Source: an uncultured Clostridium sp. (GTDB lineage Bacteria; Bacillota; Clostridia; Lachnospirales; Lachnospiraceae). Taken from it: a stretch of DNA of 64,000 nt. A program made the translations under genes and the position numbers. Each line of letters begins with the position of its first letter. Position 1 is the stretch's first letter. Below the pieces are notes generated by a model. That model made no database searches and had not been told where the DNA came from. It was given only the letters and a program-made list of their open reading frames with translations. The stretch spans positions 1 through 64,000 of the forward strand of contig CAMNRM010000002.1 of the NCBI GenBank assembly GCA_946553025.1. Reading direction: 5' to 3'. Below, one piece after another: positions 9,742 to 63,540 of the stretch.

Positions 9742-9768
9742 AAAAAAAGCTTATGAGCCAAGATCTGC

Positions 9769-9853
9769 AACTCCCTCCGGCGGCATTATCCGCATCAGGT
9801 TCAAGGGTCGAAGGTTTACCTTCCTCTCAGCCTGTCCCACAAGCTCCCCTGCT
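9769..9853 (-). promoter_or_regulatory. TPP riboswitch (THI element)
   Basis: The minus strand carries the conserved aptamer segments in order: GGGGAGC (P1), CTGAGAGG, ACCCTTGAACCTGATG, GGATAATGCCG and closing GGAGGGAG. These are the universal thi-box elements. With the terminator at 9705-9741 it forms a transcriptional off-switch for thiC-thiW. Confidence 0.95.
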
Positions 9854-9965
9854 ATGTAATTTTTTTCATTATAAGGCTAAAATCCAGCTTTGTCAAACAA
9901 AAAATCTTTCCGCAAAAAAACTTTTTATAAAAAACTTTTCCACTAAGATTTTTCCCGCCAAGATA

Positions 9966-10964: not shown

Positions 10965-10998
10965 CTTGTCCACCGTCCTTATTTTTTATCATGCTTAG

Positions 10999-11082
10999 CA
11001 TAAAAACCGTTACGGTTCACCTAGGTTCACTTACATTCACCTACGTTCACTGTAACCCCAAAATGTCGGTGCGGTTTTTATG
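10999..11082. repeat. four tandem 10-bp repeats inside an inverted repeat
   Basis: From 11011 to 11050 there are four head-to-tail 10-bp units ending in TTCAC (TACGGTTCAC, CTAGGTTCAC, TTACATTCAC, CTACGTTCAC), one helical turn apart. They are bracketed by an 11-bp inverted repeat (CATAAAAACCG at 10999-11009, its complement at 11072-11082). A fifth GGTTCAC follows at 11082. The spacing suggests a cooperative protein-binding array between the divergent eamA and GNAT genes. Confidence 0.6.
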
Positions 11083-11159
11083 GTTCACCGCTATTCTACC
11101 GCATATTTTGCGTTTTGTCTTGTAAAATATCTTCAATTTTCTCAATTCAATTTTCTCAT

Positions 11160-11188
11160 TTGCGTTCATGGTAAACCTATGCTATGAT
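11160..11188 (+). promoter_or_regulatory. promoter of the GNAT gene
   Basis: TTGCGT at 11160-11165, 17-nt spacer and TATGAT at 11183-11188, about 50 nt before the start at 11239. Confidence 0.5.
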
Positions 11189-11238
11189 AGAAACATCAAA
11201 AAGTCTTTAGAATCCAGTCAAAACAAAAGAGGTACACC

Positions 11239-11751
11239 ATGGCAGAAAGCAACACAGAAAAGAACATATTAAAGAAAGCAACTAAGAACGTATTAGAGAA
11301 AGCAATTATCTTGAGAAAAGCGCAGCAGGAAGATTTAAGGCCGATCATTGAACTGCAGAAAAAAATATTTTACCTCGAACAAAACATCCCAGCAGACGAT
11401 ATCGAAGGATTTCTTGACCGGAACCCGATGTGCTGGTGTGCGGTCTGTGATGATAAGATTGTCAGCGCAGCGGCGGCCTGGGAAGAAAACGGCGTTCTCC
11501 ACTGGGGAAGGTTTGTCACCAATTCCCGGTACAGAGGGCTGCACATCGGCACACAGTTAGCCCGCCGCTGCTTTGATGATCTCTTTTCTCAGGGCTATAC
11601 GCAGATTTACATGGAAGCCAGGGAAGTTACGGTAAAGATGATCGTGAACATGGGCGGAGAAATCACAGGGGAAACCGTACCCTTTTTTGCAGGAACCGTA
11701 ACCCCGTTAATCCTGAAAAAAGAAAGCTATTACAAAAGCGCGGGGTTATAA
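11239..11751 (+). CDS. GNAT family N-acetyltransferase
   Basis: Acetyltransferase (170 aa). Residues 25-150 have the GNAT fold, with the acetyl-CoA loop YRGLHIGTQLARRCFD and a closing NMGGE segment. The N-terminal 24 residues are a Lys/Glu-rich extension. GAGGT precedes the ATG. Acceptor unknown. It converges on a MATE transporter gene. Confidence 0.8.
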   Translation: MAESNTEKNILKKATKNVLEKAIILRKAQQEDLRPIIELQKKIFYLEQNIPADDIEGFLDRNPMCWCAVCDDKIVSAAAAWEENGVLHWGRFVTNSRYRGLHIGTQLARRCFDDLFSQGYTQIYMEAREVTVKMIVNMGGEITGETVPFFAGTVTPLILKKESYYKSAGL

Positions 11752-11766
11752 TCTCCGCTTTTTCCC
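11734..11766 (+). terminator. intrinsic terminator of the GNAT gene
   Basis: AAAAGCG at 11734-11740 pairs with CGCTTTT further on and is followed by a T run. The left arm overlaps the last codons of the gene. Confidence 0.6.
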
Positions 11767-11787
11767 TTATTTTACCTTCTTTCCCCG

Positions 11788-11872
11788 CCTGCCCGATTTT
11801 CTTAATATAGGTTTCCGCCACCTGCCTGATTTTCCCGGTATATTTTCCCGCCTGCCCAATTTTCCCGATATA
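11788..11872. repeat. three imperfect tandem ~30-bp repeats across the MATE stop codon
   Basis: Units beginning CCTGCC(C/T)(G/A)ATTTT start at 11788, 11821 and 11851. They encode the repeated tail of the MATE protein (YREN-AGG motifs) and include its stop codon, so the C-terminus has grown by tandem duplication. Confidence 0.65.
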
Positions 11873-13223
11873 AAAACCCTGCGGTAATTCCTATGGTAAC
11901 GACTTCTGTCACCGGCGCTGCCATCCACACGCCCGTCATGCCAAAAAGAACGGGCAGGGTAAAGATACAGATCAAAAGAACAAATAATCCCCTTGAAAAA
12001 GATATTGCCGCGGAAGCAAACGCCCTTCCTGTCGCGGTAAAGTAAAAGGAGGTAATCGAGTTTATCCCGGAAAAGAAAAAGGAGGTCATAAAAATCATCA
12101 TTCCTGCACGAATCATGGTCTGCACGGATTCATTCCGGACAAAAACTCTGCTGTAAGGTTCGGAAAATAAAGCCATAACCAGGACGACCGCCGCTCCCGC
12201 CAGAAACACATAGCGATTCGTCCTTTTTCGGATAGCTGCTGCAAGCGTTTTTTCCTCCGCTCCATAGCAAAAACTGATTAAAGGGCTGCTTCCCTGTCCG
12301 AATCCGACGATAACCATACTGAACAGATAGGATACATACCCGACAATGGTAAATGCCGTCACCCCGTCCACACCAAATTTTTTCATAATCACAAAATTGT
12401 ATGCAAACATGGCAATTCCCGTGGACATTTCCCCGATAAATTCTGAACTTCCATTTAAGATTCCCCGGATGCAAAGCTTAAAAGAAAAATGAAATTTTCC
12501 CAGACGATAAACTTTTGCCCGCTGAAAGGAAAGCTTTGCCTGTTGAAAGGAAACCTTTTCGTACCCACAAGCGTCTGCACCACCCAGGAAATAATACAGG
12601 ATACAGACAAAAGATACCAGGGCTGAAACCAGCGAAGCCATGGCAATTCCTGCTGCCCCCAAACTCAGCACGGCAGAAAAAATATAATCAAAAGCCACAT
12701 TCAGCAAGACATTAACTACAGTCACTTTCATAAAAAACCTGGGATTTCCCTCCCCGCGGATAAACATACCAAAGGAAGAATTAACCACCATCACCGGAAG
12801 TTCCAAAAGCATAATCCGGTAATATTCCCGAAAATACCCCTTGGTGATCTCATCCGCCCGCAGCACGGAAAGCATGGGGGAAAAGCAAAACACCAGGATT
12901 ATGCTGATAAGCCCAGAGACAATCACCGTCGTTGTAATGGTCTGGCGAAACACCTGGTTGGCAAAATCGGTATCACCGGAACCCAGCGCCATTCCCGCGG
13001 CAGCCACGCCGCCAATGGAAATCATCAGACCCACGCCCAGGTAGAGATAAATCATGGGCAGCCCTAAATTTACCGCCGCAATCCCTTCTTTTCCCACATA
13101 GTTTCCCATAAAAAATCCGTCAGCAACCGTAATCAGCGCCGTCAGCACCATTGAGATAATCGCGGGAACAGAAAACTGTAAAATCTTTTTTGCCGGGTTT
13201 TTCCGGATTTCTTCTAACTGCAT
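11802..13223 (-). CDS. MATE family efflux transporter
   Basis: Twelve-helix antiporter (473 aa) of the MATE superfamily that expels cationic drugs or metabolites using Na+ or H+. Seen: GTLVNVLLNVAFDYIF-like first half, FGQGSSPLISFCYGA in the second half, which is the hallmark of the DinF/NorM-like group. The ATG at 13223 is chosen because AAGGAGG precedes it; the frame opens at 13244. The last 25 residues are a repetitive hydrophilic tail (YREN..AGG twice) encoded by tandem DNA repeats and not expected in the family. Confidence 0.9.
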   Translation of the reverse strand: MQLEEIRKNPAKKILQFSVPAIISMVLTALITVADGFFMGNYVGKEGIAAVNLGLPMIYLYLGVGLMISIGGVAAAGMALGSGDTDFANQVFRQTITTTVIVSGLISIILVFCFSPMLSVLRADEITKGYFREYYRIMLLELPVMVVNSSFGMFIRGEGNPRFFMKVTVVNVLLNVAFDYIFSAVLSLGAAGIAMASLVSALVSFVCILYYFLGGADACGYEKVSFQQAKLSFQRAKVYRLGKFHFSFKLCIRGILNGSSEFIGEMSTGIAMFAYNFVIMKKFGVDGVTAFTIVGYVSYLFSMVIVGFGQGSSPLISFCYGAEEKTLAAAIRKRTNRYVFLAGAAVVLVMALFSEPYSRVFVRNESVQTMIRAGMMIFMTSFFFSGINSITSFYFTATGRAFASAAISFSRGLFVLLICIFTLPVLFGMTGVWMAAPVTEVVTIGITAGFLYRENWAGGKIYRENQAGGGNLY

Positions 13224-13499
13224 AAAAATTTCCTCCTTGTTCATGATAATGTTCTTGCGCCAATGTTCTTACATCCATGTCCTTCCATCCATGCTTTTAC
13301 CTTCATACCTTTGCATCGATCGTTGTCATGTAATCCATTGAATATTACCCATGATAGAGAAGGAATCAAAAAAATACTTCTGGATTCTTGCCCTGTATTT
13401 TCCGTTTATTTTTCTGTATCACCGGAATTTAGCCATGCCAATGTAACACGGTACGCCGCCCAAATAGAGTTTTTATTTACTATAGTTGCAGGTGCATAT
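13224..13499. other. 276-bp stretch without a recognised gene
   Basis: Between the MATE gene and the small broken ORF. It should hold the minus-strand MATE promoter, but no clear boxes were seen. Short ORFs here do not resemble known proteins. Confidence 0.4.
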
Positions 13500-13602
13500 C
13501 TACAGCTTGCTTCCCATTTCGTATAAAGCATCGCATTTTTCCTTAGTAAAGGTGGTATTTTTCCATGATTAATGCCTTATATGCTTTTTCATCTTTCGTC
13601 AT
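13500..13602 (-). pseudogene. frameshifted small ORF downstream of the nucleotidyltransferase
   Basis: An ATG at 13602 overlaps the end of the nucleotidyltransferase gene by 14 nt and opens a 19-codon frame (MTKDEKAYKALIMEKYH then a stop). Removing one T from the TTT at that point gives a continuous 33-aa protein ending LTKEKCDALYEMGSKL and a stop at 13500. The coherent sequence on both sides argues for a single-base insertion. No family recognised; its place after an MNT gene suggests a partner. Confidence 0.45.
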
Positions 13603-13951
13603 ACAATATAATACCATCCTTTTCTACTTGCTTATAAAATAAACTGTTTCTTACAGATTTCAATTCATTTCTTCCATAGGACAACAAATCAAACTCAACA
13701 TCACCTAATATACTCCACAATTTTGAATGAAAATCAAACATTTCTTTATTTGTCAACAGCTTGCCTGTTGGCATATATTCAGATTCAATGTATAAATCGA
13801 CATCCGAATCCACAGTACTCTCTCCCCTTGCTGTAGAACCAAACAATACAACTAAACTAAACAGATGGTTAAAATTATGACATAATTCTCTTACCTGTTT
13901 TATCATATCTTCTCTGCCATTCAGCATAATAGTATTATCCCATGTTCTCAT
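13589..13951 (-). CDS. MNT-type nucleotidyltransferase domain protein
   Basis: Minimal nucleotidyltransferase (120 aa) with the pol-beta core GSTARGESTVDSDVDL (Gly38-Ser39, Asp50 and Asp52 as metal ligands) and a C-terminal FDLLSYGRNELK strand carrying the third acidic residue. Such proteins are usually the antitoxin half of HEPN/MNT pairs and add AMP to the HEPN toxin. AAGGAG precedes the ATG at 13951. No HEPN gene follows; only a short broken ORF overlaps its end. Confidence 0.8.
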   Translation of the reverse strand: MRTWDNTIMLNGREDMIKQVRELCHNFNHLFSLVVLFGSTARGESTVDSDVDLYIESEYMPTGKLLTNKEMFDFHSKLWSILGDVEFDLLSYGRNELKSVRNSLFYKQVEKDGIILYDER

Positions 13952-13976
13952 ATTGAAATCTCCTTTTTATCCAATA

Positions 13977-14813
13977 CTACCTCACCGGGACACAAATATC
14001 CATCTCCGCTTCCATTGCCGCGCAGTCCACGACATGATAGATATCGATGATATTTCGCCTCTCGTCCAGCCGATAGCGCGTTTTGGGAAGCCATACCAGA
14101 AAAAGAGTCTGATAAGCCGCATAAATGGCTTTAATATGTCCCTTAAACGAATAAACCGCACATTTTCCGCCATGCAGAATAGTTATATTTTCCAACCTGC
14201 ACTCCTCTCCCACACTCAAACCAATATCATAAAGGCAGTTCTTTGCCCTGGTCAGCGACGGATCATCATAGGTTATTTCAAGAAACTTTGTATCCTTAGA
14301 AATATAGTCCCGGTAGCGCACAAGCAGTTCACCCCAGTCCCTGTGCATGTGCTCGTAGCTGCCAAAACGACGCTCATAAATCATGCGGTAATCGGGTATC
14401 TCCTTTATCGCAATCTTTCGGTTACAGTCGGCAAAGCTTTCTGCCCTCCATTGTTCATGATGGAAAAACGGATGCTCCATTGCCCCCTGGTAACTCTTTT
14501 TTCGGAAGGAAACCGGCGACGTCTTATAGTGCTGGCGGAAAGCCGAACTGTAATTGGATGAACTGTAACCATAATCGGCACTGATCTCCGTTATCGAACG
14601 CTCCTTTTCCGTTTTCAGCCGAAACGCACTCTGCTCGAGCCGAACCCTCTTAATAAATTGATAAACGCTCTCCCCCGTCTGGGTTTTAAACAGCCGGCTG
14701 AAATAATAGGGGGAAAAATAACAGTGTGCTGCCACTTCATTGAGGGTGAGTTCTTCCTCTATATGCTGTAAGATATAATCAATCGCCTGGTTAATGGCTT
14801 TACTGGTAATCAT
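13977..14813 (-). CDS. AraC family regulator with GyrI-like ligand domain
   Basis: Transcription factor (278 aa). Residues 1-105 hold two AraC helix-turn-helix motifs (EVAAHCYFSPYYFSRLFK and SITEISADYGYSSSNYSSAFR). The C-terminal half has the GyrI-like (SOUL/BmrR-type) ligand-binding fold, including FGSYEHMHRDWGEL and a typical end near YHVVDCAAMEAEMDICVPV. The frame opens at 14870, but AGGAGG sits before the ATG at 14813. Family members sense drugs or small ligands. It is not next to an obvious target. Confidence 0.87.
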   Translation of the reverse strand: MITSKAINQAIDYILQHIEEELTLNEVAAHCYFSPYYFSRLFKTQTGESVYQFIKRVRLEQSAFRLKTEKERSITEISADYGYSSSNYSSAFRQHYKTSPVSFRKKSYQGAMEHPFFHHEQWRAESFADCNRKIAIKEIPDYRMIYERRFGSYEHMHRDWGELLVRYRDYISKDTKFLEITYDDPSLTRAKNCLYDIGLSVGEECRLENITILHGGKCAVYSFKGHIKAIYAAYQTLFLVWLPKTRYRLDERRNIIDIYHVVDCAAMEAEMDICVPVR

Positions 14814-15073
14814 TCCGTCCTCCTGCCTTCCCTTTCTTTCCCCTTGCTTAATATCATCAGTATAACGCATAAAACAGGCTTTGACAATGCTTCCGAACCG
14901 GATTCCCGATCAAATACACCTGAATAACTGCATCCGCCGTAATACCAGTTGCATATAAAAATCTTTTCCGCTAAACTAAAAAAGAGAAATCTAAAAAAGA
15001 GAAAAAAGAAGATAAAACTTACCCTAAAAAACAACACCCAAAACAAATTCTCACAAAGGAGTATCCGCAAAAA

Positions 15074-38521: not shown

Positions 38522-38989
38522 TTACTTCTCCATTATTGCATCTATTATCAATTTCTTATTATCTTTCAGCAACTTCCGCTCCCACCCATACAGCCAAGTT
38601 TCATGATCGGTTATCCATTGATCTATTTTTTCCGATTCCTCTATCCAAGCATCAGGATAATTAAAATTTCCGGCATATTTAGGATTTTGATAGTCATGTA
38701 CTCCATAACGAAAAATAGAAACTAATTCATCATCGTCTTTTTCTTCCAAAAATCGAATCGTTAATTGAATATCTTCAGGAGGTGTTGCTTCATAAAACGT
38801 CCATACCCCACTTCTTTGGGACATCGCAAACCAATTAATTATAGTAAAAAAAGCAATTACACACAGCGGTCTTTTCTCCGGCGGAATATGATAATACAAT
38901 TCTTTACAAAATTCCGGTTCCAGAAGATACAAATCCTGATCATCAATTTCTTCCAGCTGCTGATAAAGTTTTTCAATCCTACTTTCCAT
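38522..38989 (-). CDS. DUF4375/DMP19-like protein, copy A
   Basis: 155 aa helical protein with DLYLLEPEFCKELYYHIPPE, FFTIINWFAMSQRSGVWTF and an acidic EEKDDDELVSIFRYG stretch. It resembles the DMP19/DUF4375 proteins (a DNA-mimic and immunity-like family), though the match is by pattern only. Second copy at 44701-45168 differs at about ten residues, mostly near the C-terminus. AGGAG lies before the ATG at 38989. Confidence 0.65.
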   Translation of the reverse strand: MESRIEKLYQQLEEIDDQDLYLLEPEFCKELYYHIPPEKRPLCVIAFFTIINWFAMSQRSGVWTFYEATPPEDIQLTIRFLEEKDDDELVSIFRYGVHDYQNPKYAGNFNYPDAWIEESEKIDQWITDHETWLYGWERKLLKDNKKLIIDAIMEK

Positions 38990-39052
38990 ATCAACCACAC
39001 TCCTGTTTATGAATTTAACCTAATGCTTACTTATCTGGTGTAAAAATTCTTT

Positions 39053-44697: not shown

Positions 44698-45235
44698 ATT
44701 TTACTTCTCCATCATTGCATCTATTATCAATTCCTTATTATCATTTAGCAACTTCCGTTCCCACCCATACAGCCATATTTCATGATTGGTTATCCATTGA
44801 TCTATTTTTTCCGATTCCTCTATCCAAATATCAGGATAATTAAAATTTCCGGCATAGTTAGGATTTTGATAGTCATGTATTCCATAACGAAAAATAGAAA
44901 CCAATTCATCATCGTCTTTTTCTTCCAAAAATCGAATCGTTAATTGAATATCTTCAGGAGGTGTTGCTTCATAAAACGTCCATACCCCACTTCTTTGGGA
45001 CATCGCAAACCAATTAATTATAGTAAAAAAAGCAATTACACACAGCGGTCTTTTCTCCGGCGGAATATGATAATACAATTCTTTACAAAATTCCGGTTCC
45101 AGAAGATACAAATCCTGATCATCAATTTCTTCCAGCTGCTGATAAAGTTTTTCAATCCTATTTTCCATATCAACCACGCTCCTGTTTATAAATTTAACCT
45201 AATGCTTACTTATCTGGTGTAAAAATTCTTTTCAA
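44637..45235. repeat. 599-bp duplication, copy B
   Basis: See copy A at 38458-39056. In this copy both genes are intact. Confidence 0.9.
44701..45168 (-). CDS. DUF4375/DMP19-like protein, copy B
   Basis: 155 aa, near-identical to copy A at 38522-38989, with changes mostly in the last 50 residues (for example YGIHDYQNPNYAG instead of YGVHDYQNPKYAG). Retention of the frame in both copies suggests that both are or were used. Linked to cytidine deaminase. Confidence 0.65.
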   Translation of the reverse strand: MENRIEKLYQQLEEIDDQDLYLLEPEFCKELYYHIPPEKRPLCVIAFFTIINWFAMSQRSGVWTFYEATPPEDIQLTIRFLEEKDDDELVSIFRYGIHDYQNPNYAGNFNYPDIWIEESEKIDQWITNHEIWLYGWERKLLNDNKELIIDAMMEK

Positions 45236-52171: not shown

Positions 52172-53836
52172 TCACCCCATATTCTTCAGCACCCGCAAAA
52201 CCACCCGCGTTCCCTTTCCTTCTTCGCTCGAAAGTTCCACCCCGCAGGGGACGCCGTAGCCCAGGCGTATCCGCTGATGAACATTCCACAGGCCAAAACC
52301 CTTCTCCTGGCCTGTGTTCTCTTTGTCAAAATCATTGGCTTCCCGGTTCATCCTCTCTTTAAGCTGCCGTAAAGTTTCCTGACTCATCCCCTCCCCGGTA
52401 TCCTCCACAATCAGCAGAAGGTATTCTCCTTCCTCCTGCGCAAATATCTGGATGCATCCTATGCCCTCCCTGGATTTCACCCCATGATAGATGGCATTTT
52501 CCACGATGGGCTGAAGGATGAACTTCATTATCTTATACTCCATCAGCGAAGAAGGAACATGCATTTCCCAGCGCAGCTGATCGGCAAAACGGATTTTTTG
52601 AATTTTTAGGTAATACATCACATGCATCAGTTCATCGCGCACCGTTACCTTATCCTGTCCCTGGTGAAGCCCTAAGCGGAAGAGCCGGGATAAATCCGTG
52701 ACCAGCTCTGCCACCTGCTCGTCCCCGTTCTGCCGGGCCAGGATATTGACGGAATCTAGGGTATTGTACAGAAAATGAGGATTAATCTGGTAGACCATGG
52801 CCTGCAGCTCCAGCCTCCGGCTCTGCTCTTCCTCCTCCTTTACCCGGAAAAAAAGCATGGAAATCTGCTCGGACATCTGGTTCAGCAGACGGCCCAGATC
52901 CCCGATCTCATCCCTTCCCGTCACCCTGACCTTGGCGGAAAAATCTCCCTTTCCGTAACGGGCCATGGTTTCCTTCATCACCTGTATCGGGCGGGTAATC
53001 CGATCGGCTAAAAGAATGCTGATTCCCGCCGAAACCACCAGGGCGGCGATAAGCACCCGCGCAAGCTTATAGAGAAGTTCCTTCGCCGGCCCGAGAATCA
53101 AAGTTTTATCGCTCCAGGTCCGCAGCTTCCAGTCGCCGATTTCCCTTTCCGTGTGCAGAAGATCTTCATAATTATCATAATAGCGGTAAAAAAAGCCCTG
53201 TTCCGTCACCTCAAAGCCATTGCGCACGCCCTTGAGGGAAAACCTCTGGCTGTTTTGCAGGCGGAACTGGTTAAACAAATTTAAAATCTGTGCATTGTCA
53301 ATCTGAAGAAAGAGATAAGCTGACCGTTTCTCCTTGGCAGATGTGCGCACCTTTCCAAAAACCATCATGCTTGTCGTGTTATAGCCGCTGTCCCAGACGA
53401 TTCCCCCGGCATAGCGCTCCGCAGTGCTGATCCGGTCAATAAGATAGGTTCGGACCTTTTCCTCTTCCTCCCCTGCCCCGACAATCTCTCCCGCCTGGTT
53501 CATCAGAAACAAATCGCAAATCCAGTCATTTTCGTTTACCGCGGCCCTCATCCACGCTTCAAGTTCCTGCCTGTCCTCCCCCTTTTCCCATAAAAGCGGA
53601 AGAAGGGCGGACAGTTCTTCCCCCTCCAACAGTTCTTCCATCACCGTTTCCACATTCTGCCGGAAAAAAAGGATGGACGAACACAGCGATTCCGCCAGCC
53701 GATCCTGGCTCTTTTTCTGCATATTCATCTGGTAATCCGAAAGCACCTGATATCCGGTCATTCCAAATAAAAGGAACAAAATAATAATTGCCCCGCCAAA
53801 GCACACGATAATCTTTGCCTTAATCGTCCGAATCAT
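52172..53836 (-). CDS. sensor histidine kinase (YesM-type)
   Basis: 554 aa: TM1 about residues 8-30, an outer dCACHE-like sensor to about 265, TM2, HAMP, then the HisKA_7TM-less core with the phospho-His in INPHFLYNTLDSVNIL and the HATPase with VENAIYHGV and DTGEGMS. YesM-type kinases sense sugars or other nutrients. The ATG at 53836 overlaps the response regulator's end by 17 bp; the open frame to 53923 is antisense filler of that gene. Last gene of the nine-gene minus-strand locus. Confidence 0.9.
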   Translation of the reverse strand: MIRTIKAKIIVCFGGAIIILFLLFGMTGYQVLSDYQMNMQKKSQDRLAESLCSSILFFRQNVETVMEELLEGEELSALLPLLWEKGEDRQELEAWMRAAVNENDWICDLFLMNQAGEIVGAGEEEEKVRTYLIDRISTAERYAGGIVWDSGYNTTSMMVFGKVRTSAKEKRSAYLFLQIDNAQILNLFNQFRLQNSQRFSLKGVRNGFEVTEQGFFYRYYDNYEDLLHTEREIGDWKLRTWSDKTLILGPAKELLYKLARVLIAALVVSAGISILLADRITRPIQVMKETMARYGKGDFSAKVRVTGRDEIGDLGRLLNQMSEQISMLFFRVKEEEEQSRRLELQAMVYQINPHFLYNTLDSVNILARQNGDEQVAELVTDLSRLFRLGLHQGQDKVTVRDELMHVMYYLKIQKIRFADQLRWEMHVPSSLMEYKIMKFILQPIVENAIYHGVKSREGIGCIQIFAQEEGEYLLLIVEDTGEGMSQETLRQLKERMNREANDFDKENTGQEKGFGLWNVHQRIRLGYGVPCGVELSSEEGKGTRVVLRVLKNMG

Positions 53837-55025
53837 CTTTTTTCCCCACACGCTTCCTGTACTGCCCCGGTGTTTCTCCGGTCTGTTTTTTAAACTGCAG
53901 GCTGAAATAATAGACGCTGGCATAGCCTACGGCCTGCGCTATCGCCTGGTGCTTCATCTCCGTGCGCTCCAAAAGCTTCCTGGCCCGCTCTATCCGTTTC
54001 TGGGTTAAGTATTCAATGCAGGTAATTCCCATCTGCTTTTTAAACAGCCGGGAAAAATACCCGGCGCTGACATGAAGGCGCTGTGCAATATCATTTACCC
54101 CGAAATCCTCCTGGCTTAAATGCTCTTCAATCAGCTTTATCGACTGAAAGACCAGGTTTTCTCCCTCCTGGCCAAGCCGTCCCCCTGCCTTTAACACCGC
54201 CTCGGCATCCTTAAAGGATAAGGAAATTTCCATCCAGTCCCTTGCCAGACGCCCCGCTGCCGCCTGCACTTCCTGGTGGATTTCCGATCCGAAAAGATAG
54301 GAAAACAGCAAAAGCTGGGAAGAATCCGGTTCATGGGAGAGCAAAAGAACCACCCTTTTCTCTCCCATCCGAACCCAGTACATACAGCCGGAAAACGCGC
54401 CTTTCGCCGCCTCCTCTATGCTTTTCCCTAAATCTTTCCAGTTTATGTCTTCTTTTCCCTCCCACACCGCAGCCACACAGCACAGCCCTCCGTCGGGAAA
54501 AATGATCCCTGCAAGTTCCATCCTTCGCTTGGCATCCTGCTTATCCGAAACCTCGTCCTTTAACAGTGCCCGCCAGAAATCCGCAGCCAGCTGCGGGCGG
54601 AAAACATGGATAAATTCCTCCGACTCCCTGACCTGCTGCTTGATCTGGCGGCTTTCCTCTACCTGGCGGAATGCCTCCAGCACGGTATTTTCCAGTTCTG
54701 CCGGGACAATGGGCTTTAACAGATACTTAAACACCCCGGCCTCAATGGCTTCCCTTGCGTAAGTAAAGTCCTCATAGGCGGACAGAATAATCACCCGCAT
54801 CCAGGGCCAGGCGTCATGAATCTTCTTTGCCAGTTCAATTCCGGTCATTTTCTGCATATAGATATCCGTTATCACTAAATCAAAGGCTTCGTTTTCCAGC
54901 AGTTCCAGCGCCCTGGCTGCATTCTCTGCCGTCACAAGCTTCTGGCATCCGATTTTTTCCCAGTTGATAATCGCCCGCATCCCGTCCCGGATAATTTTTT
55001 CATCATCCACGAACAATATTTTCAT
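53820..55025 (-). CDS. response regulator with AraC output domain (YesN-type)
   Basis: 401 aa: receiver domain with LFVDDEK at the start, phospho-acceptor Asp in LVITDIYM and Lys in YLLKPI; the middle is a variable linker; the last 100 residues carry two AraC-type helix-turn-helix motifs (VNDIAQRLHVSAGYFSRLFK). Works with the kinase encoded next. The ATG at 55025 follows GGGAGG; the frame opens at 55058. Likely activates the ABC importer/glycyl radical operon. Confidence 0.92.
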   Translation of the reverse strand: MKILFVDDEKIIRDGMRAIINWEKIGCQKLVTAENAARALELLENEAFDLVITDIYMQKMTGIELAKKIHDAWPWMRVIILSAYEDFTYAREAIEAGVFKYLLKPIVPAELENTVLEAFRQVEESRQIKQQVRESEEFIHVFRPQLAADFWRALLKDEVSDKQDAKRRMELAGIIFPDGGLCCVAAVWEGKEDINWKDLGKSIEEAAKGAFSGCMYWVRMGEKRVVLLLSHEPDSSQLLLFSYLFGSEIHQEVQAAAGRLARDWMEISLSFKDAEAVLKAGGRLGQEGENLVFQSIKLIEEHLSQEDFGVNDIAQRLHVSAGYFSRLFKKQMGITCIEYLTQKRIERARKLLERTEMKHQAIAQAVGYASVYYFSLQFKKQTGETPGQYRKRVGKKDDSDD

Positions 55026-55114
55026 TCGCCAGCCCTCCCGTACACTTCCATCTGCCATCTACCCTTTAGTATAACGAAATCCGCCACAAGTTTCCAGTAT
55101 TAATGATTTCCTTT

Positions 55115-56113
55115 TTAATGATTTCCTTTTGCCAAAAGCTTATCCGCATAGACGGCAAGAACCAAAATCGTGCCTTTGATCAGATACTGATAAAACGAAG
55201 GCACATTGACCATATCCAGCCCGTTATTGAGCACAGCCAGGAAGGCAACCCCGAGAAGGGTTCCAAAAACACCTCCGTTCCCGCCGGACATCCCGGTTCC
55301 CCCCAGGGCAACCGCGGTAATCAAATCCAGTTCGTAGCCCTTGGCTGCCACGGTCGAGGCGCTCGAGAGCCGGCCCACCAGAATCAGACCGCTTAACCCT
55401 GCCATGGCCCCGCACAGGGTATAGCAGAGCAAAAGAATCCTCTCCGGGCGGATTCCCGCCAGACGGGCAATTTCACGGCTTCCGCCCACGGCATAGACCT
55501 TGCGCCCGGTTCTGGTATAGGTTAAAAAGAAAAACATCACGCCGAACACAGCCAGAAAAAGAATCATCTGCACGGGAATCGGGCCGATATGCCCCTGACC
55601 AAGGAAGCTGTAGCCGTCATCCATAAAGGTGATCGGCGAACCGGACACCCCGCGCACCACAAAGTCGGCAACCACATAGACCAGTCCGCGGGCAATGGAC
55701 ATCATGGCAAGGGTAGCGACAAAGGGGGCAATGTGCAGCCGCGCAATGCACAGGCCGTTGAACAGTCCCAGCAGTCCGCAGCCCGCCATCGCTGCAAGGA
55801 TCGTCACGATAAACGGAAGCTTTATCGGATTGGCAGCCCCGATTCCCTTGCCCAGAAGCCCTGCACCCAGCACGCCGGCCAGCGCCATCATCGAGCCCGC
55901 GGAAAGATCCGTTCCCCCGGTTAGAATCACCAGCGTCATTCCCAGGGAGGCAATCCCGTACAGGGACATCGTGCACAGAATATTATCCAGGCTCCGGGGA
56001 GCGGCAAACTCCGGGCGGATAGCCGTAAATCCGATAAACAGCAGCACCAGCAGCAGGAAGATCAATTTCTGCTGGTTAAGGCTTCTTTTTTGTCTTTCCT
56101 TTCCTTCTCTCAT
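55115..56113 (-). CDS. sugar-type ABC transporter permease (RbsC-like), second
   Basis: 332 aa inner-membrane permease with about nine helices, ILTGGTDLSAGSMMALAGVL and the conserved GGTGMSGGNGGVFGTLLG. Carries the BPD_transp_2 fold of ribose/galactose-type importers. Overlaps the first permease by 4 bp. With two permeases, the channel is probably a heterodimer. Confidence 0.92.
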   Translation of the reverse strand: MREGKERQKRSLNQQKLIFLLLVLLFIGFTAIRPEFAAPRSLDNILCTMSLYGIASLGMTLVILTGGTDLSAGSMMALAGVLGAGLLGKGIGAANPIKLPFIVTILAAMAGCGLLGLFNGLCIARLHIAPFVATLAMMSIARGLVYVVADFVVRGVSGSPITFMDDGYSFLGQGHIGPIPVQMILFLAVFGVMFFFLTYTRTGRKVYAVGGSREIARLAGIRPERILLLCYTLCGAMAGLSGLILVGRLSSASTVAAKGYELDLITAVALGGTGMSGGNGGVFGTLLGVAFLAVLNNGLDMVNVPSFYQYLIKGTILVLAVYADKLLAKGNH

Positions 56114-57102
56114 TTGGCTGCCCCTCCTTTCTTTTTCTGTGCGGGTCTTACGTGCAGATACTTTCCGCCGACCGCCAAAATCACCACCAGACCCTTAATC
56201 AGCAGTTTATAGTAGGTGGGAAGTCCCATCATGTTCATGCCGTTTTCAATTACGCCAAAGATAAAAATACCAATCACCGTGCCAAGCACCGAACCCTTTC
56301 CGCCCGACTGCAGGGTGCCGCCCAGCACAACGCCGGCGATAACGTCCATCTCGTAGGCTTCCCCGGCTACGGCAGAGGCCGAGGCCACCCGGGCAGTCAT
56401 CACAATCCCTGCCAGACCGGACATCATTCCCATAAGCACATAGGTCAGACAGATATTCTTTTCCACCGCAATCCCCGAAAGTTCTGCGGTTTCCCGGTTT
56501 CCGCCGACAGCAAACAGCGAACGGCCATAAGCCGTATATTTTAAGAGCCATCCCCCAGCCAGCGCCACAAGAATAAATAAAATCGCCGGAGCCGGGATAA
56601 TGCCGGCATAGCCCTTACCCAGCCAGGCAAATCCTTCAGGAATCGGCTGGAAATTAATGGGATAGCCCCCGGTGTACAGGTAGGTAAGCCCCCGGACAAA
56701 GATCATCATCGCCAGGGTTGCAATAAACGGTTCCACCTTAAGCTTTGTAATAATCAGACCATTGACCAGGCCGATACACCCCGCCGCCAAAAGCCCCAGG
56801 GCAATCGCAACAATTACCGGACATTTAAAGAGATTGCTGGTGATATAGTCGCTGTATCCGCCCACCAGGAGAGAGGCCGTTACCGCCCCGGAGAGCGCAA
56901 AGGTCGAACCCACGGATAAGTCAATTCCCCCCGTCAGCAGCACAAGAGTCATGGCAATGGACATCATCCCCTTAATCGAGTTTAAGCGGATAATATCCAG
57001 CAGATTTCCCTGGGTTAAAAAATTCGGCACCAGAAGGCTCATCAGCCCGGTGAGCAAAAAAAGTGCAGCCAAAAGCCGTAAATTATCCTTTCTTCTCTGC
57101 AT
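56110..57102 (-). CDS. sugar-type ABC transporter permease (RbsC-like), first
   Basis: 330 aa, about nine helices, with VLLTGGIDLSVGSTFALSGA and the loop GGTLQSGGKGSVLGTVIG. Paralogue of the other permease. The ATG at 57102 has AAAAGGAGAG ahead and overlaps the ATPase gene by 20 bp; the frame opens at 57201. Confidence 0.92.
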   Translation of the reverse strand: MQRRKDNLRLLAALFLLTGLMSLLVPNFLTQGNLLDIIRLNSIKGMMSIAMTLVLLTGGIDLSVGSTFALSGAVTASLLVGGYSDYITSNLFKCPVIVAIALGLLAAGCIGLVNGLIITKLKVEPFIATLAMMIFVRGLTYLYTGGYPINFQPIPEGFAWLGKGYAGIIPAPAILFILVALAGGWLLKYTAYGRSLFAVGGNRETAELSGIAVEKNICLTYVLMGMMSGLAGIVMTARVASASAVAGEAYEMDVIAGVVLGGTLQSGGKGSVLGTVIGIFIFGVIENGMNMMGLPTYYKLLIKGLVVILAVGGKYLHVRPAQKKKGGAAK

Positions 57103-58609
57103 TGCTTCTCTCCTTTTCCCGCCCCTGCCCTGCGGCAAAGGCCATAATCGTTTCCTCGTCAAATGCATCCCGCGCCAGTTCCCCGGTGATTTCTCCCTCA
57201 TGCATCACTAAAATCCGGTCACAGATCCCCATAAGTTCCGGCATCTCCGAAGAGATGATCAGGATTGCCATCCCTTTTTCCACCAGAGTTTTTACCATTT
57301 CGTAAATCTCCACCTTCGCCCCCACGTCAATTCCCCGGGTCGGTTCGTCGATAATCAAAAGGCGGCAGTCGGCAAACAGCCATTTTCCCAAAACCACCTT
57401 CTGCTGGTTTCCGCCGGAGAGATTCGACACCGTTTCGTCGATTCCCGGCGTGGCAATATGAAGGCGGCTCCGATAATCCTCGGCAGCCTCTGCTTCCCTT
57501 TTTAAGTTCAGCTTTCCCCACTGCACCAGCTTCTTTAAATTCGCCAGGGTTGTATTCCCCCTGACATCCATCATCAGCACCAGGCCCTGATTCTTCCGAT
57601 CCTCCGGCACAAGCCCGATCCGGTTGGCTATGGCATCCCTTGGTGAACGGACAGCAAGAACTTTCCCGTCCATTTCCACTTCCCCGCTGCTGATTTTATC
57701 CGCGCCGAAAACAGCCCTGGCAAGCTCTGTTCTCCCCGCTCCCACTAATCCGGCAATCCCAAGGATTTCCCCCTGATGAACCGTAAGGCTGATATCCTTT
57801 AGCTTGTCCCTGGTCGAAAGATGGCGGACGCTTAAGACCGGTTCTCCAATCTTTACACTGGATTTGGGATACATATCCGCCAGATCCCGCCCGACCATCA
57901 TCCGAATCATATCGGGAATCTCCACATCCTTTACCTTTGCCGTACCCACATAGCATCCGTCGCGAAGCACCGTTATCCGATCGCCGATTGCCTTGATTTC
58001 TTCCAGATGATGCGAAACGTAAATCACGGCAACCTGGCGGCTTTTCAGCTTTTGAATCACCGTAAAAAGATGGTCGATTTCCTTCTGGGTGAGCGCGGCA
58101 CTGGGCTCATCCATAATAATCAGCTTTGCCTTTTTGGAAAGGGCTTTGGCAATCTCCACCATCTGCTGCTGTGCAACCTTAAGGCGGGAAACCGGCGTTT
58201 TCGGATCGATATCAAGGCCCGCCTGCAAAAGCAGTTCTCTGCTTTCGTCATAACATGTTTTCCAGTCAATCATCCCGTTTTTCTTCCTTGGCTGCCGCCC
58301 CAGAAAGATGTTTTCTGCCGCGCTCAGATAGGGAAGAAGGGTAAATTCCTGATAGATAATCGAGATTCCCAAATCCTCGGCAAGCTTTGGCGTCAGCCCT
58401 CCCACAGCCTTCCCTTCGATGTAAATCTCGCCCTCATCCCTGGCATAGGCACCCGCTAAGATCTTTAGCAGGGTCGATTTTCCCGCCCCGTTTTCCCCTA
58501 AAAGGGCGTGTACCTCCCCGCAGAAAACCTCCAGATTTACCTTGGAAAGCGCCTTTACTCCGGGAAAGGATTTGCTGATATTAACCATACGAAGATATGT
58601 ATTATCCAT
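57083..58609 (-). CDS. sugar-type ABC transporter ATPase (RbsA/MglA-like)
   Basis: 508-aa double ATPase. First half: Walker A GENGAGKST, Walker B LIIMDEPSAALT. Second half: degenerate first site with GLVGAGRTELARAVFG, signature NLSGGNQQKVVLGKW, Walker B LLIIDEPTRGIDVG. This tandem with a changed second Walker A is the hallmark of RbsA-type importers. Overlaps the activase gene by 8 bp. Confidence 0.94.
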   Translation of the reverse strand: MDNTYLRMVNISKSFPGVKALSKVNLEVFCGEVHALLGENGAGKSTLLKILAGAYARDEGEIYIEGKAVGGLTPKLAEDLGISIIYQEFTLLPYLSAAENIFLGRQPRKKNGMIDWKTCYDESRELLLQAGLDIDPKTPVSRLKVAQQQMVEIAKALSKKAKLIIMDEPSAALTQKEIDHLFTVIQKLKSRQVAVIYVSHHLEEIKAIGDRITVLRDGCYVGTAKVKDVEIPDMIRMMVGRDLADMYPKSSVKIGEPVLSVRHLSTRDKLKDISLTVHQGEILGIAGLVGAGRTELARAVFGADKISSGEVEMDGKVLAVRSPRDAIANRIGLVPEDRKNQGLVLMMDVRGNTTLANLKKLVQWGKLNLKREAEAAEDYRSRLHIATPGIDETVSNLSGGNQQKVVLGKWLFADCRLLIIDEPTRGIDVGAKVEIYEMVKTLVEKGMAILIISSEMPELMGICDRILVMHEGEITGELARDAFDEETIMAFAAGQGREKERSNAEKKG

Positions 58610-59636
58610 GGTTTTTCTTCCTCCTTCTTCGGACTTCCTCGTTTAATCTCTGCATTTGCTCCTCTTTGGGAACTGCGGTTTCCGTCAGCAGATACGTTTT
58701 TCCAAGACTTGCATATTTCCCGCGTCCCAGGCGGTGATAGGGCAAAAGCTGATAATCCGAAACGCCGGGAAGATTATGGACAATCCAGTCCGCCATCGCA
58801 CCGATATCCTCTGTGCGGTCATTAACTCCGGGGATAACCGGTGTGCGGACAATCACCTTAAGCCCCGTATTTTCTGTATCTTTTCCATTTTTCCCCTTTT
58901 TCATCTCGGTCACATATGCAGATACCTTCCGCATATTTTCCTGAATCATTCTTGTCCCGACTCCCGTATAATAGCGATGCTTTTCTTCATCCAAAAGCTT
59001 CATATCCATAAATAAAACATCCACAAAGGGCAGACATGGGGCAATCGCCTCCCACTCGGCATACATGCTGCTTTCCATGGCTGTGTTAAGCCCCAGAGCC
59101 TTTGCCTTCTGTAAAAGCTTTAAGAGAAATGCCGGCTGGGCAAACGGCTCTCCGCCGGTTACGGTAAGCCCCCCGCCGCTGCTTGCATAGATGGCCTTAT
59201 CATGCATCACTTCTTCTAAAATTTCATCGACCGAAACCTCCCATCCCATCACCGAAAGCGCCTCTGCATAGCACGCCTTGCTGCATAAAAATCCACCTTC
59301 TTCAGGGCCTTTTTTGTAACAGTTTTTACGGCAGATTTCCGTGTCAATCACCAGACCTTCCCCTTTATCCGAACCCTTTTCTTCCTGAATCCCGCCGTAA
59401 GGACAGTGCTTTATACAGCTTCTGCAGCCGATGCATTTATCCCGGAAAAACGCCAGTTCAAAACAGCCCTCCTGTGATTCGGGGTTGCTGCACCACTGAC
59501 AGCGCAGAGGGCAGCCCTTAAAAAATACATTGGTGCGGATTCCCGGCCCGTCGTGCAGGCTCCAGCGCTGAATATCGAAAATCCTTCCCTTGATGCCAAT
59601 CTCCGGGGTTTCTTTTTTGTTTTCTTCTTTATTCAT
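58602..59636 (-). CDS. glycyl radical enzyme activating enzyme (radical SAM)
   Basis: 344 aa. Radical SAM motif GCPLRCQWC (Cys42, Cys46, Cys49 in CX3CX2C), then a ferredoxin-like insert (CIGCRSCIKHCPYGG, further cysteines near CRKNC and CSKAC) for two extra 4Fe-4S clusters, GGEPFAQP and the SAM-binding TGGE region. It makes the Gly radical on the small GRE subunit. AAAGGAAAACAGG is before the ATG. Confidence 0.93.
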   Translation of the reverse strand: MNKEENKKETPEIGIKGRIFDIQRWSLHDGPGIRTNVFFKGCPLRCQWCSNPESQEGCFELAFFRDKCIGCRSCIKHCPYGGIQEEKGSDKGEGLVIDTEICRKNCYKKGPEEGGFLCSKACYAEALSVMGWEVSVDEILEEVMHDKAIYASSGGGLTVTGGEPFAQPAFLLKLLQKAKALGLNTAMESSMYAEWEAIAPCLPFVDVLFMDMKLLDEEKHRYYTGVGTRMIQENMRKVSAYVTEMKKGKNGKDTENTGLKVIVRTPVIPGVNDRTEDIGAMADWIVHNLPGVSDYQLLPYHRLGRGKYASLGKTYLLTETAVPKEEQMQRLNEEVRRRRKKNHG

Positions 59637-59704: not shown

Positions 59705-59941
59705 TTAAATCCGCTCTTCGGTTCGCTCAATAATATCCTGCTGCACCTTCTTTTCCAGGTTCACAAAATATGCCGAATAGCCGGCCACCCGCACGATTAA
59801 ATTCTGATATTTGGCGGGATCGGCCTGTGCTCTGAGCAGGGTATCGCGGCTGACAACATTAAACTGCATCTGCATCCCTCCCAGAGAAAAATAGTAATCA
59901 ATTAAGTTCACCAGACGAGCTAAGCCTGCATTTTGTTCCAT
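59705..59941 (-). CDS. glycine radical domain protein (small part of split GRE)
   Basis: 78 aa. It holds only the C-terminal glycyl radical domain: GGMQMQFNVVSRDTLLRAQ and VRVAGYSAYFVNL with the radical Gly54. In normal enzymes this domain is fused to the catalytic barrel. Here a stop codon, a new GGAAGGAG and a new ATG separate it, 24 bp after the large gene. Size of both parts (757 + 78) equals one full glycyl radical enzyme. No frameshift: the large frame ends at TAA and the small one begins anew. Confidence 0.9.
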   Translation of the reverse strand: MEQNAGLARLVNLIDYYFSLGGMQMQFNVVSRDTLLRAQADPAKYQNLIVRVAGYSAYFVNLEKKVQQDIIERTEERI

Positions 59942-59965
59942 CGTTTTCTCTCCTTCCATTCCCAT

Positions 59966-62239
59966 TTAATCCCGCAAATCCTGCGGCAGCAGCTTTAAGT
60001 TATAAAGCGATCCTTCAGACAAGATTATATTTTTACATTTGGAAACAGACTGTACCGCAGCGGTCGGGCCTTTGGTATCCGTTCCGCGCATGGGCGACTG
60101 CCCGTCGGAAAGCGGCACATTTCCTTCTCTTCCGTCGGGTAAAGCCCCGGTCAGCAGACCAAACGGCGTATTGGAAGAAACCGTGGTCGTGGATGCCTGG
60201 AAAATCCCGCCTATCGGTCCCCGTCCATAGCGGGTATTCTTATATTTGGGAAGTTCTTCACACACTGACTCTAAAACCCGGCTGACCATTAAGTCAACCT
60301 CTTCCACATCATTTCCATACTTGGGGACATGCAGGCAGAGCTGCTGAATCTGCGGCCCGGTAGGGCTTGTCGTCATGTCCTTAAAATTCGTTAAAAGTGC
60401 GTGCTTAAGCTGCTCCCCGGTCAGCTTCTTATCGTCAAATACCAGTTTTTTCACCGCATAGAGGCTGTTTCCCGTATTGGCTGTGCCGATGGTTTCATTG
60501 CCGGTAAAATCATACTTTGCCCCGCCTCGTTTAATCGACTTTCCGCGCTCTAAAACCGTCAGCGTACAGCCCATAATCGACGTCAGCGGTTCTTCCATGT
60601 ACTCTTCCCACAGACGGTCCGTGTAGTTATCCATAATCACATGGATTTTCGCATAGTAGCGCATCTGATCCTGGAAGGCTTCCCATAACTCCTCAAAATT
60701 TGCAAAGGTCGCCAGATCCTTTCCGCTGCTGTTGGGGTGAAGGGTCACGCCGCTTCGGGGATCTTTTCCGTTGTACAGGGTTACTTCCAAAATCTTTGCC
60801 AGGCAAAACCATGCTGCCCCGGTTCTTCCTCCGCGCAGTCCGGCAACTCCCGGCTCTGCACAGCCCACGATACAGTAATCCGAAGCATCTTCTCTGCTGT
60901 AGCCGCGGTTCATCATGGCAGGTATGTAGAGATCGTCGTTGGCTACCGCAGGGAAACCTGTTCCCAGCCGAATCGTTTCGGCAATCTTTAACTTAAATTC
61001 CTCCGGCGTGTTCTTGTGCCAGCGTACATAGTGGGAGGGCTGAAGCGTCCGGGTATTAGCAATACAGTCCATAATCAGATAAGATAATTCGTTCGTTGCG
61101 TCTTTGCCCGTTGCCGGGTCAATTCCTCCGGTCGTTAAGTTCTGGAAAATCGGCTTTCCCCTAAAGTACGCGGTATCTTCCCAGGAACGCATCCTCTCTA
61201 CCGTGGAGAGCAGGACAAAAAAGTTTTCCACCAGTTCCACGGCAAGATCCCTGGTCAGCCTTCCCTCTTCAAGATCTTTTCGATAGTAAGAAATCATCAC
61301 CTGGTCGAAGCGCCCGGGACTGATTCCCTGGGCATTGTCCTCGATTTGTATGCCAAACTGAACAAAGGTCATAAACTGCAGGGCTTCGTGGAAGGTTTCC
61401 GCAGGGTTTTCGGGAACTTTTTTGCATATCCTGGAAAGTTCTTCCAGTTCAGCCCTGCGCACAGGGTTTTCTTCCTTTTCTGCCATTTCCTTCGCCAGCT
61501 TGTGATAGCGGTGCGCATAGGCAATCAATGCCTCGCAGACGGTTTTTGCCGCCTGGTAAAAACGCCGCTTTTCCATCCCCTCCACTGTCCACAGCTCCAG
61601 CGCCGAAAGCTTTTCTTCACAAATCCTGATAATTTCCTTTAACCCGTGGGCAAACAGCCAGGGCCAGGGCGGGGTGAGATGCCCGCAGCCGCCGTGCATA
61701 AAGTTGACGATATTAACCGCACCCACATCATCCTGGGCAGAGATGGCTTCCGGCGGAAGGTTGGCATAGAGCCTGTCTTTATGGGTATTTCCCTTCCAGA
61801 AATGAATGATTTTCTCTAACTCCGGCATATCACTGCGCTTATATTCAATCTTGTCCGCCGGGCGCTCATCCGGGTAATACGGCTTTCCGTGGATAAACTC
61901 CTCCTCCAGAAAATCTACGGCATATTCGGGAAAGAGCGGTGCATAGTTGGGACGGCTCGCCTGATTTCCGGCTAAAAGACTTCCCGGAAGGATGTAGATG
62001 GACATCTTATTCAGGATTTCCTTTAACGCAGCGGCCCGAAGCTGAATGGGCGTAAGGTCACGGTTATTCTGGTAAACCTCGGTAATAATCCGCCCCCGCT
62101 CCATACACATCCCAACCTTCGACGCTCCAACGACCTGATAAAGATGGTCAATCCTCTGCGTCCGCACGGGTTTTTGGTGCATCTGGTAATGAAAGGGTTC
62201 ATTATCTGCTATTTCTTTACTTACCATTTCTTTATCCAT
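59966..62239 (-). CDS. glycyl radical enzyme, catalytic large part (split GRE)
   Basis: 757 aa. PFL-like barrel of the dehydratase/lyase type: thiyl Cys460 and base Glu462 in DYCIVGCAEPGV, His187 in HGGCGHLTP, and a TTTVSSNTPFGLLTGALPDG region near the end. A single Cys followed by x-Glu fits diol dehydratase, choline lyase and hydroxyproline dehydratase kin, not pyruvate formate lyase (Cys-Cys). The glycyl radical domain is missing and encoded by the next gene. AGAGGAGAAAACT is before the ATG. Substrate not known; the importer in the same locus suggests an imported small polyol or sugar acid. Confidence 0.92.
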   Translation of the reverse strand: MDKEMVSKEIADNEPFHYQMHQKPVRTQRIDHLYQVVGASKVGMCMERGRIITEVYQNNRDLTPIQLRAAALKEILNKMSIYILPGSLLAGNQASRPNYAPLFPEYAVDFLEEEFIHGKPYYPDERPADKIEYKRSDMPELEKIIHFWKGNTHKDRLYANLPPEAISAQDDVGAVNIVNFMHGGCGHLTPPWPWLFAHGLKEIIRICEEKLSALELWTVEGMEKRRFYQAAKTVCEALIAYAHRYHKLAKEMAEKEENPVRRAELEELSRICKKVPENPAETFHEALQFMTFVQFGIQIEDNAQGISPGRFDQVMISYYRKDLEEGRLTRDLAVELVENFFVLLSTVERMRSWEDTAYFRGKPIFQNLTTGGIDPATGKDATNELSYLIMDCIANTRTLQPSHYVRWHKNTPEEFKLKIAETIRLGTGFPAVANDDLYIPAMMNRGYSREDASDYCIVGCAEPGVAGLRGGRTGAAWFCLAKILEVTLYNGKDPRSGVTLHPNSSGKDLATFANFEELWEAFQDQMRYYAKIHVIMDNYTDRLWEEYMEEPLTSIMGCTLTVLERGKSIKRGGAKYDFTGNETIGTANTGNSLYAVKKLVFDDKKLTGEQLKHALLTNFKDMTTSPTGPQIQQLCLHVPKYGNDVEEVDLMVSRVLESVCEELPKYKNTRYGRGPIGGIFQASTTTVSSNTPFGLLTGALPDGREGNVPLSDGQSPMRGTDTKGPTAAVQSVSKCKNIILSEGSLYNLKLLPQDLRD

Positions 62240-62370: not shown

Positions 62371-63528
62371 TTACCAGCCCTGGAATTCCGGTTCGTTGCA
62401 GTTTGTCTGGTCGATTTTATAGCAGGTCGGCCTGAGCCAGGTAAATCCGTCGTCGGTTTCGGTAACTTCTATCGGCGTTCCCTTATAGGAAATATTGCTG
62501 TAGTCCACGGTTTCCCCTTTGGCAACCAGGTAGGCAACTTCCACGGCTACGGCCTGCTCATCGGGCTTAAACATAACCTCGTAGTTAATTTTTCCCGCAC
62601 GAACCGCATCCAGTGCTTCTTTTTCTCCGTCCACGCTGATAATCTGGAACTCGCCCAGCCGCCCGGCGGCCTCCACGGCCTGCAGTCCGCCAAGAGCCAT
62701 CTCGTCATTCATATAGTAGATAACGTCAAAGTCCCCGGCATTAGGATAGCGCTGAAGAATGGTTTCGGTAACTTCCATGCCCTTTGTCCGGTCAAAATCA
62801 CCGTCCACTTTATAGATAACCTCAATTCCCGGCTCCTCCTCCAGCTTTGCATAGTAGGCACCGCCGCGGTCAATCGTCGAGCCTGCCCCCGCGGTTCCTT
62901 CAACCACAACGACCTTGCCCTTGGCATTTCCTGCGCCGCCTAAGGCTTCAATCGTCTGCTCTGCGCCCTGTGTTCCGGATAAAACCATATCCCAGGTCAC
63001 ATAGCACTCCCAGCCTACGTCCTGACCCTGCTTTAAGATACGGCGGTCAACAATAATCAGGGGAATCCCTGCGTCATTGACCTTTTTAATGGACGGGAGC
63101 ATGGGATCGGAAACTGCCGCAGTTAAGATAATCGCGTCCACACCCTGGGCAAGAAAGGTATCAATCTGGGAGGCCTGGGTCGTGGCATCGTTCTTTCCGT
63201 CGGCAAAAACCAGTTCACAGTTTTCCAGCCCGTCGGCAACCTCCTGCGCCCCCTGCATTAAAAGCTGGTAAACCGGGTGATCAAAATACGCCATCGCCCA
63301 TCCAATCGTGATTTTTTCACCGGAATTTTCCGCCGCCTTTGCCGACTCGGTTACTGCCTCCTTGGCAGCGCTCTCTTCACTTCCTGCCGCCTGATTTTGT
63401 CCGTCAGCCGGTGCCGGTGCCTGCTCCTGCGACGAACCGCAGCCGACAAAGGTAAAAGCAAGCGATGCTGCCAGAAACAGACAGCCGAGCATTTTTTTCA
63501 TCTTCTTTGTGTTCTTCATTTTTTTCAT
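62371..63528 (-). CDS. sugar-type ABC substrate-binding lipoprotein
   Basis: 385 aa. Lipoprotein signal with basic start and LAFTFVGCGSS (Cys30), then a Ser/Ala/Gln-rich linker, then a type I binding protein domain (Peripla_BP_4: ITIGWAMAYFDHPVYQLLMQ, DAIILTAAVSDPMLP and a late DGEKEALDAVRAGKI). First gene of the locus. The ATG at 63528 has the GGAGG of the upstream ATGGAGG. Ligand not certain: ribose/allose-like or a polyol. Confidence 0.93.
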   Translation of the reverse strand: MKKMKNTKKMKKMLGCLFLAASLAFTFVGCGSSQEQAPAPADGQNQAAGSEESAAKEAVTESAKAAENSGEKITIGWAMAYFDHPVYQLLMQGAQEVADGLENCELVFADGKNDATTQASQIDTFLAQGVDAIILTAAVSDPMLPSIKKVNDAGIPLIIVDRRILKQGQDVGWECYVTWDMVLSGTQGAEQTIEALGGAGNAKGKVVVVEGTAGAGSTIDRGGAYYAKLEEEPGIEVIYKVDGDFDRTKGMEVTETILQRYPNAGDFDVIYYMNDEMALGGLQAVEAAGRLGEFQIISVDGEKEALDAVRAGKINYEVMFKPDEQAVAVEVAYLVAKGETVDYSNISYKGTPIEVTETDDGFTWLRPTCYKIDQTNCNEPEFQGW

Positions 63529-63540
63529 GTCGTCCTCCAT

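Follow-up and report, generated by a model that had tools for sequence, protein, structure and literature searches.

The window, the whole 64,000-nt stretch analysed here (positions 1 to 64,000 of contig CAMNRM010000002.1, assembly GCA_946553025.1, uncultured Clostridium sp.), encodes a glycyl radical enzyme (GRE) as two adjacent proteins, flanked by an activase and a sugar-type ABC importer. The features of the locus are as follows.

53820..55058, minus strand: AraC-type response regulator, the probable regulator (PF00072 and PF12833)
55115..56113, minus strand: ABC importer permease 2, assigned by reading of its sequence only
56110..57201, minus strand: ABC importer permease 1 (BPD_transp_2 domain match)
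57083..58609, minus strand: sugar-type ABC importer ATPase, 508 aa (library matches below equivalog cut-offs)
58602..59636, minus strand: radical SAM GRE activase, 344 aa (CPLRCQWC; PF04055; TIGR02494 at 312.7 bits, cut-off 174.35)
59705..59941, minus strand: radical subunit, 78 aa (RVAGY motif, in RVAGYSAYF)
59780-59782, minus strand: codon of the predicted radical Gly54, in RVAGY of the small protein
59942..59965, minus strand: intergenic gap of 24 nt, with ribosome site AGGAGA at 59949-59954
59966..62239, minus strand: GRE catalytic (thiyl) subunit, an ORF of 757 aa lacking the radical domain (PF02901)
60860-60862, minus strand: codon of the thiyl Cys460 (GCAEPG, within the YCIVGCAEPG loop)
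62371..63540, minus strand: ribose-type substrate-binding protein, 389 aa (PF13407 at 158.3 bits; RbsB-like, below equivalog cut-off)

We take Cys460 to be the thiyl cysteine from what is known of the family, and Gly54 to be the radical glycine from its position in the family motif. A promoter and terminator scan returned six promoter-like and six terminator-like sites, none of them inside the 24-nt gap; shuffled sequences gave 4.2 and 5.0, so the scan is uninformative. Elsewhere in the window, two 158-aa ORFs (38522-38998 and 44701-45177, both minus strand) are identical at 463 of 477 nt and sit among many small ORFs and acetyltransferase-like proteins (named by eye).

The initial annotation had described a true stop after the large gene and a new ribosome site and ATG 24 bp on, and the window sequence bears this out. 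The large ORF ends in LLPQDLRD followed by TAA. The small-ORF ATG at 59941 lies exactly 24 nt downstream, spaced 7 nt from AGGAGA. Two earlier in-frame ATGs, one directly past the stop and one at +6, are preceded by poorer matches to AGGAGG (4/6 and 3/6), so the ATG at 59941 is most likely the start.

PF02901 matches residues 28-694 of the large protein at 648.5 bits (cut-off 24.3). The glycyl radical profile PF01228 is divided, with positions 2-46 on the large protein (24.0 bits) and 45-106 on the small one (77.6 bits, cut-off 22.2), and the domain is complete only with both chains. In PFL-like GREs the radical domain usually sits on the same chain as the thiyl cysteine, which is not a chemical requirement; the window GRE does not have this arrangement. 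The two proteins sum to 835 aa (757 + 78), compared with 827, 828 and 829 aa in three single-chain relatives (lengths that depend on the start codons chosen), in agreement with the earlier remark that they add up to a normal single-chain enzyme. Six PF01228 matches occur in the same genome. The other five (G000:C17, C44, C45, C54 and C100, corresponding to L001, L002, L005, L004 and L006) are encoded in unbroken frames of 795-859 aa, so splitting is not the general rule for GREs in this cell.

Since the small ORF shares the reading frame of the large one, the window alone would allow a single mutation; relatives exclude it. The enzyme belongs to a clade of PFL-like GREs represented by 17 loci, of which 13 are split at the same place, three are single-chain and one (G048; L037 and L070) is cut by a contig end and excluded from the counts.

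Split, 13 loci with 14 large genes: the window, L051-L055, L067-L069, L084, L087, L088 and L093; named members are a [Clostridium] symbiosum MAG (L055), a Mediterraneibacter MAG (L052) and Bacillus canaveralius (L054)
Fused, three loci: L050 ([Clostridium] symbiosum ATCC 14940), L089 and L094

The same split is kept by relatives in several anaerobic bacterial groups, and the split gene in B. canaveralius (L054, 6001-8496) lies outside Clostridia-type genomes.

These loci came from several overlapping genome draws with strict thresholds (E 1e-140 for the family search, 1e-220 or 1e-240 for profiles). With the window protein as query, a contig search gave six clade loci among 17 loci returned, and a search of 397 genomes of the window's own family gave five, including its own and the contig-end-cut one. 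A profile built from 11 large proteins brought in G780 from a class draw (391 genomes) and G1175, G1242 and G1184 from a phylum draw (398 genomes); profile searches further added G1431 (genus of G1175, 11 genomes) and G1436 (family of G1242, 8 genomes). No close relative was found in 10 other genomes of the window's genus (nearest, a 32% match), and no clade member besides the query genome in 295 genomes of the order or besides G780 in six genomes of its family. PF01228 matches turned up in 275 of the 398 genomes scanned, a figure that does not measure the prevalence of other split GREs; among the matches listed, with weak ones unlisted, were two frames of 198 and 252 aa. The locus had no plasmid match by megablast, tblastn against plasmids gave only GREs below 60% identity (best among the matches listed 38.5%, 23 records), and no match to viral contigs was confirmed. 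With no close match in these searches, we reject a mobile or phage origin.

Conserved motifs accompany the split. GCxE is present in 17/17 clade rows and 9/9 outgroup rows, and RVAGY in all 16 clade loci that possess a radical domain. Judged by eye, 11 of the 13 split loci have an activase close to the GRE; none is visible in the stretches covered for L084 and L093.

The cut always falls in a short linker between ...P-x-D/E/H-L and the helix GLxRxV, but its details vary. Stop codons at the 13 split junctions are TAA (7), TGA (4) and TAG (2). The tail is in frame 0 relative to the large gene in nine loci and in frame +2 in four, and the gap from stop to best start ranges from about 6 to 153 nt. 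At least 5/6 AGGAGG positions are matched at 11 of the 12 start sites scored, a count made with no shuffled control. L093 was unscored for ribosome sites, and the start in L084 is uncertain (4/6 positions), its tail running into the contig end.

This variety bears on two explanations in which the small gene is not a true separate gene. A gene for one chain could look split through a point mutation, decay to a pseudogene or a sequencing error: the window has only a single in-frame TAA at the junction, and L050 is unbroken. But 12 further loci are split with other stops, frames and gaps, start sites matching at least 5/6 AGGAGG positions occur in 11 of the 12 loci scored (with no shuffled control), and both genes are under strong purifying selection (see below). 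We give this explanation practically no chance and regard a point mutation or assembly error as refuted by the conserved split in those 12 loci. Alternatively, programmed read-through or frameshifting could yield a full-length chain, as the same frame and one intervening stop in six of the 13 split loci, the window included, would allow. The tail is in another frame in four loci, however, further stops intervene in three more and the type of stop is not conserved. Such an arrangement is not conserved, and we reject the explanation as very improbable, although some read-through product is possible in the six same-frame, one-stop loci.

The initial annotation had proposed a two-part enzyme with the small protein as its radical source, and had suggested looking for the same split in other genomes; the 12 further loci found, with their varied stops, gaps and frames, support it. 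So do the three loci in which these two parts are naturally fused, and the large proteins, which lack a radical domain. It had also named two observations that would count against it. One, a second full radical domain in the large protein, was found in none of the large proteins. The other, an unbroken gene in a sister strain, does exist (L050, 85% identical) but does not argue for a point mutation in the window.

Phylogenetic trees place L050 in context. We built a first tree of 45 proteins (729 columns) and a second of 26 rows (740 columns), to which L093 and L094 were added and which has nine outgroups. The clade separates from the outgroups with support of 100 in the first tree and 100/100 in the second. 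L050 falls within a subclade of eight (100/100), and the seven others are all split; the exact place of L050 there is weaker (86.6/67). Its fused junction is rebuilt (QDLSEDAGLNRL). Given this nesting and the rebuilt junction, L050 is most simply explained as a re-fusion. The other fused members are less settled: L089 shifts from sister of L088 (91, first tree) to a basal position (85.7/69, second tree), and L094 groups with L088 at 91/52. Because of this unstable placing, one old split with later re-fusions and two to three separate splits are both possible histories. Outgroups were filtered for a radical motif at the C-terminus (30 of 33 proteins passed, two of the 30 rows being the same gene), so they are fused by construction and the tree is silent on splits elsewhere. 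The three proteins dropped by the filter proved single-chain on inspection. Function does not depend on the split, as three members of the clade make do with one chain.

Both parts appear to be maintained. Between the window and L055, the tail has dN 0.027 and dS 0.76; the large protein has dN 0.075 with dS saturated. Tail and large gene are thus under strong purifying selection by these sequence comparisons. Identities of the large protein and the tail rise together across 16 loci, three of them fused (Pearson 0.86 over 120 non-independent pairs).

In G025 (L067), two tandem catalytic genes (9619-11859 and 12704-14944, minus strand) are present with a tail gene after the second only. A tblastn search for a second tail over the 19.9-kb stretch found none (best other match E 0.86). 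The first 1050 nt of the catalytic copies are 82% identical (dN 0.085, dS 0.96, w about 0.09) and the last 1188 nt 98.8% identical, which looks like gene conversion together with selection on both copies. Within the genus of G1175, L087 (1908-10501) and L093 (4583-12099) have kinase, aldolase and isomerase genes upstream that are 91-96% identical, while PfkB (70%), the large protein (60%), the tail (73%) and the binding protein (32%) have diverged. This looks like an exchange of large gene and tail as one cassette.

One explanation for these patterns is neutral fission: the split protein works as one enzyme without benefit, and its parts part and rejoin by drift. Fused L050 nested in a split subclade, fused L094 beside split L088 and the likeness of split L055 and fused L050 in operon and sequence all fit this explanation. 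It is harder to square with retention of the split in 13 of the 16 scorable loci, down to about 53% identity, and with G025, where two catalytic genes under selection and one tail suggest a use for separateness (the upstream copy could be idle). We regard neutral fission as a serious possibility while leaning somewhat against it.

Clues to the substrate come from the pocket, the neighbours and the nearest structures. The large protein misses all NCBIfam equivalog cut-offs by far (best 431.9 against 1000, part of the shortfall coming from the missing radical domain), including those for GREs of known substrate (choline, hydroxyproline, sulfopropanediol, arylacetate and others). For the PFL2-3 subfamily model TIGR01774, the two chains score 591.3 and 87.9 bits, together 679.2 against a cut-off of 678.2, although the curated test does not provide for adding up two chains. 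A GH(S/G) pocket motif is present in 9/9 outgroup rows and reads QG, AG, VG or YG in 17/17 clade rows. In glycerol dehydratase, the His and Ser of this motif bind the substrate.

Sugar genes accompany several clade members. The neighbours of L087 include an AgaR-like regulator (below cut-off), a ROK glucokinase, a tagatose/ketose-bisphosphate aldolase, a phosphoglucose/phosphomannose isomerase and a 1-phosphofructokinase-type kinase. Fused L089 (10445-15361) lies with a class II aldolase, an FGGY kinase and a distant sulfoquinovose isomerase-like protein (271.8/700 bits), which we treat as a lead to the substrate. YbiW is among the nearest solved structures to the large protein and, in the available part of its description, opens 1,5-anhydroglucitol 6-phosphate to 1-deoxyfructose 6-phosphate (PMC12441222). 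From GCxE, the sugar-gene neighbours and the YbiW reaction, our guess is that the clade enzyme is a sugar or polyol C-O lyase. The ABC rather than PTS import route and the changed pocket suggest a substrate other than that of YbiW.

The window pair is most likely a sugar or polyol lyase with two obligate subunits. The ribose-type ABC importer would bring in a sugar-like polyol. The large subunit would provide the barrel, substrate pocket and thiyl Cys460. Tail residues 10-74 align with PFL 685-754, which by extrapolation puts the natural cut near PFL 676, so the 78-aa subunit should contribute the final strand of the barrel, the glycyl loop and the C-terminal helix. The activase encoded alongside would place the radical on Gly54, the small subunit would sit in the large one and generate a thiyl radical on Cys460, and the complex would break a C-O bond by dehydration or ring opening. 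We have high confidence that a two-chain enzyme exists, whereas the binding of the two proteins and their carrying of the radical are inferred from sequence. A two-subunit GRE of this kind, with pocket and thiyl cysteine on one chain and radical on the other, cleaving a C-O bond of an imported sugar-like polyol, is very probably what the locus encodes.

A conserved two-chain form would allow activase access to the glycine, entry of the radical domain into the barrel and the swap of an oxygen-cut radical part to be studied separately. Fused and split forms that occur naturally, at about 85-89% identity to the window protein, could be compared directly. The clade also points to a radical reaction on a sugar or polyol, as yet undescribed, in anaerobes of the gut and the environment. 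A bolder reading is that this is the first natural GRE with an exchangeable radical subunit (activated, inserted and replaced independently), serving more than one catalytic subunit, as in G025, and acting on a sugar-like substrate new for GREs; we consider it possible but doubtful.

The window GRE is genuine and conserved, a two-chain version of an enzyme type already known. It shares with PFL2/glycerol dehydratase-type GREs (PF02901 and PF01228, TIGR01774; YbiW, glycerol/diol dehydratase) the fold family, the GCxE thiyl loop, the RVAGY radical motif and an activase neighbour. Unlike them, it has two chains, and its clade lacks the His of GHS. Like 4-hydroxyphenylacetate decarboxylase and the X-succinate synthases, it is made of more than one gene product. 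In those enzymes, however, the large chain keeps its radical domain, and the small subunits are proteins of another kind; the solved large chains 2y8n, 9o8u and 4pkc of GREs with extra subunits match the tail.

Free-standing glycyl radical domains are known as small proteins in GrcA/YfiD and phage T4 Y06I, and the small protein resembles YfiD in its solved structure (6owr, E 2.1e-7). GrcA is a spare for intact PFL, whereas at the window locus no other chain carries a radical domain and the partner gene lacks its own. The small protein is also without the long YfiD N-terminus, and it falls below the cut-offs for GrcA (41.5/170 bits), GrcA2 (48/145) and GrcA3 (69.6/158). According to the portion of the source available, YfiD and Y06I replace the oxygen-cut radical part of PFL and are the only validated spare parts of this kind, and YfiD acquires no radical without a PFL variant (PMC8683613). 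By analogy, the radical subunit could be a cartridge made in excess and swapped after an oxygen cut, sparing the 85-kDa subunit. The small gene has its own ribosome site, in keeping with this use, but each of the genome's five other GREs consists of one chain, and we think it on balance unlikely. That the benefit is cheap replacement of an oxygen-cut subunit, or a variable subunit ratio, is a guess.

Described GREs, in the portions of the literature available, carry radical glycine and thiyl cysteine on one chain, with the free radical domain as a repair part. Among the papers listed in our searches of open-licence literature we saw no natural split GRE, nor in the accessible parts of PMC8683613, PMC12288474, PMC12441222 and PMC11659671; a report elsewhere is possible. 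The closest parallel is an artificially split PFL, cut at nearly the same place. In the available text, the pair of tPFL (1-695) and the YfiD C-terminal part reaches wild-type activity once activated, but binding is undetectable by ITC and activation of tPFL:YfiD is 32-fold lower (PMC8683613), so a split is not free of cost. That split is man-made and binds and activates poorly; the window split is natural, and the natural pair has presumably solved both binding and activation.
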